Assembly (NCBI RefSeq): GCF_040448695.1
Contig: NZ_CP159307.1
Coordinates: 310,001 to 374,000 of the forward strand
Length of the DNA stretch: 64,000 bases
Origin: Dehalogenimonas sp. 4OHTPN
GTDB taxonomy: Bacteria; Chloroflexota; Dehalococcoidia; Dehalococcoidales; Dehalococcoidaceae
Reading direction: 5' to 3'
The notes under the pieces are model-generated. The model ran no database searches and had not been told where the DNA came from. It saw only the letters and a list, made by a program, of their open reading frames with translations. Position 1 is the first letter of the stretch. Each line of letters starts with the position of its first letter. Shown here in pieces: positions 52,672 to 54,246 of this stretch. Position numbers and translations under genes: made by a program.

Positions 52672-52717
52672 CCAAAAAACCGTTCGCGATGAGCGTGTGG
52701 AACGGAAGCTTTTTTGG
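52672..52717 (+). terminator. Terminator after gatA
   Basis: CCGTTC (52680-52685) pairs with GAACGG (52700-52705), then AAGC and a T6 run; the flanking A6 and T6 extend the stem. It is also just past the stop of the convergent gene at 52718 and may serve both strands. Confidence 0.7.
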
Positions 52718-53191
52718 TTAGGATCCCTCACTCTCGTACAAGCCTTTGGCTTTGTTCTGCTGCACAATCTTGTAGAATTCGGCGTTGACGTCGGCGCCGT
52801 TCTCCTTGAGCACCCGCTCAGTCATTTCCACGGCGTGCGACAGGTCCAGAAACTCATGCAGCCATTTGTTATGGTCGTCGGGGTTCTTCTTATAGGCCGT
52901 AGCGAACTCGGAGTATTCCTCGGCGATCTTGGTGAACTGGTGTTCCGGAGTAAACTTGCCGCGGACGCGGGGGAATTTGAAGACCTCCTTGACGGCACCG
53001 AAATGGCGCTGGAAGATATATTTATCCACATACCAAAAGACCGATGCTAAAATGAGCTGGTTCAGCAGGAAAGCCGGGAAGGTGGGTATGCCCAGCCTGT
53101 CGGCTATAATGACCTGCATGATAGCCCCGGCGATGCCGGACAGCAAGATCCAGCGCCCGAAGACGTAAACGAACCATTCCCGGGAAAACAT
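52718..53191 (-). CDS. Two-helix membrane protein with MazG-like C-terminal domain, riboswitch-controlled
   Basis: A 157-residue protein. Helices at about 12-32 and 36-58 are followed by a soluble helical tail. The tail has EEYSE (91-95), EFLD (113-116) and QNKAKGLY (145-152), the pattern of all-alpha NTP pyrophosphatases (ExxE, ExxD, then KNxxRG-like), so it may hydrolyse a nucleotide triphosphate at the membrane. Assignment rests on motif spacing only. A ZTP riboswitch and terminator lie directly before its AAGGAG ribosome site. Not a known target of that riboswitch class to my knowledge. Confidence 0.65.
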   Translation of the reverse strand: MFSREWFVYVFGRWILLSGIAGAIMQVIIADRLGIPTFPAFLLNQLILASVFWYVDKYIFQRHFGAVKEVFKFPRVRGKFTPEHQFTKIAEEYSEFATAYKKNPDDHNKWLHEFLDLSHAVEMTERVLKENGADVNAEFYKIVQQNKAKGLYESEGS

Positions 53192-53221
53192 CCAGTTATA
53201 CCTCTCCTTCTTATCCTAAAA

Positions 53222-53254
53222 TAAAAACCGCCTGAGCCAAAAAGCCCAGGCGGT
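53222..53254 (-). terminator. Terminator forming the expression platform of the ZTP riboswitch
   Basis: CCGCCTGAGCC (53228-53238) pairs with GCCCAGGCGG (53244-53253, one mismatch), followed on the minus strand by TTTTTATTTT. The 5' arm of the minus-strand hairpin is the aptamer's own conserved CCGCCTGGGC, so ligand binding would compete with termination. Confidence 0.85.
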
Positions 53255-53318
53255 CGGCAGTCATTAACATCGCGCTCCATGTGGTGCACTCCACTTCCGC
53301 CAGTCGCACGATGAATTA
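53244..53318 (-). ncRNA. ZTP/ZMP riboswitch (pfl motif)
   Basis: On the minus strand the aptamer shows the class hallmarks in order: GACTGGCG, a GTGG/CCAC stem with a six-base loop, TGGAGCG, and GCCGACCGCCTGGGC. ZTP riboswitches turn on genes when purine-precursor ZMP/ZTP rises, i.e. when formyl-folate is short (established). The aptamer end overlaps the terminator at 53222-53254, and the only downstream gene is the membrane protein at 52718. Borders are approximate. Confidence 0.85.
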
Positions 53319-53331
53319 ATCAATTGTAATT

Positions 53332-53361
53332 ACTATAAGTTTAGATACGGTGGGCTGTCAA
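53332..53361 (-). promoter_or_regulatory. Promoter of the riboswitch transcript
   Basis: On the minus strand TTGACA (53356-53361) and TATAGT (53332-53337) are 18 nt apart (17 if TTATAG is used). Transcription would start near 53325, just before the aptamer. Confidence 0.75.
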
Positions 53362-53392: not shown

Positions 53393-53421
53393 TTGACATA
53401 ACACCTCCCTTAAGGGACAAT
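53393..53421 (+). promoter_or_regulatory. Promoter of the glutaredoxin operon with central palindrome
   Basis: TTGACA (53393-53398), 17-nt spacer, GACAAT (53416-53421). A perfect palindrome CCCTTAAGGG (53407-53416) lies at the spacer/-10 border, well placed for a repressor. It diverges from the riboswitch promoter. Confidence 0.6.
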
Positions 53422-53470
53422 TGAAACTTAATCCAGATCAATGTGGATCAAGCTGTTGAAGGAGAAAAAC

Positions 53471-53749
53471 ATGGCTCGTGTTACAGTTACCGGCAAGAAC
53501 AAGGGCGATATCCTGTTATTTGCCCTGTCCACCTGTGTCTGGTGCGGTAAGACCAAGAAACTATTAGACGATCTGGGGGTCGCCTATACATATGAGTATG
53601 TTGATCTGTTGACCGGCGGCGAACGGGACGCGGCTGTTCAAGAATTGAGCAAGTGGAATCCCTCCAAGTCTTTCCCGACTCTCGTTTTCAATAATGATAA
53701 AACCATCGTCGGCTTCCGGGAGGCGGAGATCAAAGAGGCGTTGAAATGA
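53471..53749 (+). CDS. Glutaredoxin-like protein
   Basis: A 92-residue thioredoxin-fold protein with the dithiol active site Cys22/Cys25 (STCVWCGKT) and the cis-Pro in SFPTLVF. ATG 53471 follows GAAGGAG; the longer start lacks one. It overlaps the FTR-like gene by 4 bp, so it is probably that enzyme's electron acceptor (inference). Confidence 0.9.
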
Positions 53750-54246
53750 CCGAGAAACCTGGCACCAGGGCGGTTGACCGGCTGTATGAAACGCTCGACG
53801 CGGATGCGCGGCAGGGAGGCTACAACCTGAACCCTGAAGCCGAGTTCACGCGTTCGCTAGTTGAGGGCTTACTAACTAATACCGCCCGTTACGGCTACCA
53901 GGCCTGTCCCTGCCGACTAGCCTCCGGGGAACGCGCCCAAGACCTGGATATAATCTGCCCCTGCGACTACCGGGACCCTGATCTGAACGATTATGGCGCC
54001 TGTTTTTGTGCCCTGTACGTCTCCGCCGAGGTGCTACAGGGCAAGCGGAAGCTTGGGTCGGTGCCTGAAAGGAGAGGCAAATTGGTTGAAAAAAAGGAAG
54101 ATATAACCGGTTGTGGAGCCCTCATCAAACTTTCTCAGCCGGTATGGCGCTGCAAAGTTTGCGGCTACCTGTGCGGCCGGGAGGAACCGCCGGAGGTCTG
54201 CCCGATTTGCAAAGCGTCCAAAGAACGGTTCGAGCGCTTCGTATAA
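53746..54246 (+). CDS. Ferredoxin:thioredoxin reductase catalytic-type protein fused to a rubredoxin-like domain
   Basis: A 166-residue Fe-S protein. The FTR core has Cys54-Pro-Cys56, Cys71-Pro-Cys73 and Cys86-Phe-Cys88; the plant-type enzyme has His where Phe87 lies. The C-terminus carries a rubredoxin-type site (CKVCG at 136-140 and CPIC at 152-155). It would pass electrons from ferredoxin or rubredoxin to disulfides of the glutaredoxin encoded just upstream. Confidence 0.88.

Follow-up and report, generated by a model that had tools for sequence, protein, structure and literature searches.

The riboswitch unit and its leader

The window, by which we mean the whole 64-kb stretch of DNA that was analysed, comes from a Dehalogenimonas genome of 1.75 Mb in one contig and carries on its minus strand a short unit that runs from a dedicated promoter through a riboswitch to a single gene. 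A promoter scan placed the sigma-70-type promoter (TTGACA, an 18-nt spacer and TATAGT) at 53332..53361 (-). It is followed by an aptamer of the ZMP/ZTP class at 53237..53317 (-), the sole Rfam match in the entire window: the full RF01750 covariance model (positions 1-86) matches 53317-53237 with 59 bits against a gathering cut-off of 39 (E 4.9e-07), which bears out the original prediction of a ZTP riboswitch on this strand. An intrinsic terminator with a U-rich tail occupies 53216..53255 (-); its stem (53255-53226) folds with about -22.8 kcal/mol, and the 5' arm of that stem, ACCGCCUGGGC, overlaps the 3' side of aptamer P3 and the pseudoknot strand, so that the terminator does share the last stem of the aptamer as had been claimed. 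A Shine-Dalgarno-like element, AGGAGAGG, can be read at 53201..53208 (-) ahead of the ATG at 53191, which opens a reading frame of 157 residues (52718..53191, -) at a distance of 46 nt from the aptamer. The aptamer and terminator thus lie immediately before a membrane-protein gene, again as proposed. Downstream of that gene, at 52674..52705 (-), an inverted repeat (CCGTTC/GAACGG) followed by T6 was noticed by eye; it was not called by the terminator scan and is a possible transcript end ahead of the convergent gatA gene.

Our sample of the genus consisted of eight Dehalogenimonas genomes, the window's own included, and in the alignment of their leaders the order of promoter, aptamer, terminator and Shine-Dalgarno element is constant. 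All eight keep the TTGACA and TAT of the promoter, and in all eight the terminator stem has a folding energy of about -21 to -23 kcal/mol. The aptamer core and the pseudoknot are invariant; P1 is variable, with four pairs altered on both sides. Of the cells in the alignment 82% are paired, a share that falls to 36-47% on sliding the partners. The pseudoknot, which joins GGCGG of the internal loop to CCGCC of the P3 loop, forms five pairs in every leader and, being invariant, draws no support from covariation. Most measures of covariation in these eight leaders do not exceed those of shuffled alignments, and such evidence is limited because the leaders come from close relatives; it is therefore the Rfam score, and not covariation, that carries the identification of the riboswitch. 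The arrangement of the leader supports an ON-type attenuator architecture.

The divergent glutaredoxin gene upstream of the unit is kept in all eight genomes, whereas gatA was found as the downstream neighbour in only five, the unit being intact where gatA was not found there. The switch therefore keeps its gene even as the gene next downstream varies. On the plus strand a divergent promoter (53393-53421) adjoins the riboswitch unit, and the glutaredoxin gene forms a pair with a ferredoxin-thioredoxin-reductase/rubredoxin-like gene (53441-54246); promoter and pair alike are kept in the eight congeners.

Distribution of the sensor and its target gene

Each of the eight Dehalogenimonas genomes has exactly one RF01750 match (53-65 bits) and it always lies ahead of the membrane-protein gene, a regularity that excludes chance. 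Covariance-model searches found RF01750 to be absent from three genomes of the sister genus (inferred to be Dehalococcoides) and from two further members of the order, and at orthologous loci from other genomes no aptamer reached the gathering threshold. Orthologues of the membrane protein were present in 13 of the 101 relatives searched and, across the phylum, in 15 of 400 genomes, all of them from the same class (Dehalococcoidia). Orthologues were located at 22 genome-contig loci, one belonging to a long-branch Omnitrophica MAG and one to a Desulfurellaceae MAG. The protein of the Desulfurellaceae MAG (L043:4001-4174) has 57 residues and corresponds to the conserved membrane hairpin alone, the tail and the inter-helix loop both being missing.

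Elsewhere in the class the same sensor serves other genes. RF01750 matched in 35 of 294 genomes of the class, and the 22 other aptamer loci that we inspected lead into purH (19 loci) or glyA (three) and nothing else; Pfam confirmed three example genes, and purH is the gene downstream of the aptamer at locus L075. This fits the earlier statement that known ZTP riboswitches mostly serve purine and folate genes. The literature and the relatives in the class together give purH, glyA, fhs, folD and pfl as targets of the ZMP/ZTP riboswitch, or pfl motif (PMC2864571), and ZTP as the ligand of this riboswitch class has been reviewed (PMC7266159). The unit in the window has the aptamer consensus, the pseudoknot, the terminator over the 3' part and the 5' leader position of the known riboswitches; it differs from those targets in that it precedes a membrane gene. 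In the window's genome purH is at another place and lacks a switch, as the only RF01750 match in this genome is the one before the membrane-protein gene. A sensor that is typical of the class has therefore become tied to a different gene in Dehalogenimonas. Our findings establish a genuine, genus-conserved ZTP-riboswitch unit whose target, a membrane protein of restricted lineage, has a MazG-like tail. The riboswitch class is already known; its link to this gene is what is real and unusual here, and our literature search found no report of this gene as a ZTP riboswitch target and no paper combining Dehalogenimonas and MazG.

The membrane hairpin and the MazG-like tail

Hydrophobicity, alignment and structural modelling agree on an N-terminal membrane hairpin (residues 4-60; 53012..53182, -) with helices predicted at residues 4-32 and 37-71, in line with the two-helix membrane protein that had been anticipated. 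A basic stretch separates the hydrophobic helices from the tail, suggesting that the tail is cytosolic. The hairpin falls within the most conserved part of the protein: conservation averages 85% over the first 75 columns, 33 of which are invariant, compared with 68% and 16 of 78 columns in the tail. The motifs EEYSE (91-95), EFLD (113-116) and QNKAKGLY, on which the original prediction drew, are all present in the tail.

The AlphaFold model of the whole protein is mediocre (pLDDT 69); the tail modelled alone (residues 73-157) reaches pLDDT 88 and pTM 0.70. When the isolated tail was compared by Foldseek with 350,542 PDB chains, ranks 1-8 were all occupied by members of the MazG superfamily, among them the MazG-related 2yxh, iMazG, Bacillus MazG and DCTPP1 (E 0.14-1.1, probability 0.87-1.00). 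YpjD is a further structural neighbour. Superposition on 2yxh by VIA covers 83 residues at 2.4 A with Z 8.2, HisE and MazG entries matching as well, a middling Z of a kind that is common for helical bundles. Among the PHROG profiles the protein matches phrog_5164 (E 0.0033) and phrog_715, which is labelled 'MazG-like' (E 0.049); phrog_5164 is matched by 13 of 32 family members and, within the phylum, picks up loci of canonical MazG too. Searches at the level of sequence gave less. In Pfam and NCBIfam the window protein matched nothing at E <= 10, PF03819 and PF01503 included, and sequence searches of the PDB returned only unspecific helical matches. Alignment of the tail with MazG alignments by hhalign was not significant, with the correct register in one case; a local MazG profile scored the family only slightly above 6400 shuffled controls, and no convincing relative emerged from phage, plasmid and viral-contig searches. 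Because the Foldseek top ranks are consistent, and because the two PHROG profiles match and one of them recognises canonical MazG, residues 76-153 (52733..52966, -) very likely adopt the MazG-like all-alpha NTP-PPase fold.

Compared with pyrophosphohydrolases of the MazG/iMazG type (2yxh, 2q5z, 5ie9 and DCTPP1), the window protein has in common a predicted three-helix core and the EExxE...ExxD pattern; it differs in its two-helix membrane anchor, in matching no curated family model and in the variation of the Mg-ligand residues among its orthologues. With E. coli MazG as the guide, we take the Mg ligands to correspond to E92, E95, E113 and D116. The pairs E92-D116 and E95-E113 both sum to 208 and should accordingly face each other across the predicted hairpin of helices 82-102 and 107-130, as in MazG.

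We compared these residues in 32 family members, eight with the riboswitch and 24 without it. E92, D116 and H119 are invariant and E91 is nearly so; E95 is replaced by Q or D in 16 members, and 23 members have Q, R or H in place of E113. The all-alpha NTP pyrophosphatase reading proposed at the outset is supported for the fold; EExxE...ExxD is not conserved across the family. All eight riboswitch-bearing members keep E113 and seven of them, the window protein included, have the full acidic set, the exception being Q95 in G006; 23 of the 24 members without a switch lack E113. The only switch-less member with E113 is that of the Omnitrophica MAG, on whose contig stretch there is no aptamer. The riboswitch-bearing members form one supported clade in the tree (100/97), so the co-occurrence of E113 with the switch amounts to a single event and is not statistically testable. 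Judged by these residues, the members that carry the riboswitch may be catalytic, but the family as a whole does not conserve this property.

Candidate roles in nucleotide handling

We consider it probable that the gene encodes a ZTP-induced, membrane-anchored nucleotide-handling protein and constitutes a single-gene ZTP regulon. The ZTP aptamer would, in the class at large, mark genes that are used when ZTP rises. A shortage of 10-formyl-tetrahydrofolate would raise ZMP/ZTP, which would bind the aptamer during transcription and stabilise P3 and the pseudoknot; this would block the overlapping terminator and allow the gene to be transcribed, the behaviour of an ON switch. The product would be anchored by its two-helix hairpin with the MazG-like all-alpha domain on the cytosolic side. 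Its most likely role would be to handle, by hydrolysis or by binding as a sensor, a nucleotide that is abundant or damaging under folate or purine stress. Few ZTP effectors are known beyond the enzymes of purine and one-carbon metabolism, and a switch of this kind that serves just one membrane protein with a nucleotide-enzyme-like tail, throughout a genus in which purH does not carry it, would offer a direct handle on other responses of the cell to folate shortage. The link to the switch also opens a way to test what this Dehalococcoidia family, which otherwise lacks annotation, does.

That the tail is a hydrolase in some form has, in our estimation, somewhat less than an even chance. A non-catalytic domain, which would bind a nucleotide or metal and so regulate either the hairpin or some partner protein in the membrane, is a serious candidate that we favour only tentatively; conservation is higher in the membrane half than in the tail, and most orthologues have lost E113 yet retain E92, D116 and H119 invariantly. 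Such a role leaves the retention of E113 by every switch-bearing member without an explanation. A partner is suggested by the multi-TM gene (5TM-5TMR_LYT-like, below the Pfam cut-off) that directly follows the orthologue at 11 loci of another group of the class, but this gene was not found in Dehalogenimonas or the sister genus, in a search that had no positive control. Membrane-anchored house-cleaning, in which the tail would hydrolyse (d)NTPs or damaged nucleotides and be induced in folate or purine stress, accords with the structural matches to iMazG, DCTPP1, YpjD and Bacillus MazG and with the acidic set in seven of the eight switch-bearing members; given the variation of the ligand residues in the wider family, we regard it as possible and rather doubtful. 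A more specific hydrolase, a tethered tail that converts ZTP to ZMP and PPi as the product of a genus-wide one-gene regulon, is improbable in our view. If it were true, an ON switch coupled to ZTP hydrolysis would form a negative feedback, a loop dedicated to removing ZTP as an alarmone. The acidic residues at the four ligand positions, their predicted opposition across the hairpin and the near-absence of E113 where the switch is missing would all suit this activity, and enzymes of the MazG superfamily do convert NTPs to NMP and PPi (PMC5764234, PMC10014863). Against it, the coincidence of E113 and switch is confined to one clade, E113 occurs in the Omnitrophica member with no aptamer on its contig stretch, G006 has the switch and Q95, and the genome already possesses a canonical MazG.

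A further proposal makes the protein a missing HisE. Histidine synthesis releases ZMP, and HisE is the phosphoribosyl-ATP pyrophosphohydrolase of this pathway. MazG aside, searches of the Dehalogenimonas and sister-genus genomes gave no HisE (PF01503), although hisI and hisG are present there (e.g. L129, L161), and in Desulfovibrio HisE has been replaced by a MazG-family protein (PMC5764234). HisE (PRA-PH) shares the superfamily fold with the window protein, but the latter is membrane-anchored, ZTP would regulate it in the wrong direction, an ON switch pushing ZMP still higher, and E113 is not conserved. Neither the window protein nor any other member exceeds the curated PF01503 cut-off; three family members give weak matches to that model (best E 0.087). 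Many Dehalococcoidia that have no copy of this gene likewise have no HisE, so something else fills the gap; canonical MazG is the obvious candidate and may do so as in Desulfovibrio. The presence of HisE across the class shows no clean anti-correlation with the gene. The hisH-hisF genes downstream at about nine other Dehalococcoidia loci begin some 180-280 nt from the preceding gene, amid nitrogen genes, and are absent at many loci, and we did not use this association as evidence. Overall we judge the HisE proposal very unlikely indeed. Separately, the HisG domain occurs twice in a single open reading frame of 468 aa (L161:1477-2880 (-); G000:C1:1250116-1251339), a tandem HisG fusion seen in all nine genomes tested.

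The other Dehalococcoidia group mentioned above (L023, L026-L028, L030, L034, L037-L041) has a distinctive neighbourhood. The multi-TM gene follows the orthologue there within tens of nucleotides, and it is often succeeded by hisH, hisF and genes for an NrpR-like regulator and an ammonium-transporter-like protein. Some 2-3 kb upstream of the orthologue, on the other strand, five of these loci carry RF01055 riboswitches of the molybdenum/tungsten-cofactor class (L023:236-368, L026:2232-2365, L030:1888-2021, L034:2233-2366 and L037:1229-1361, all on the minus strand), which lie ahead of an apparent tungstate/molybdate-type transporter operon.
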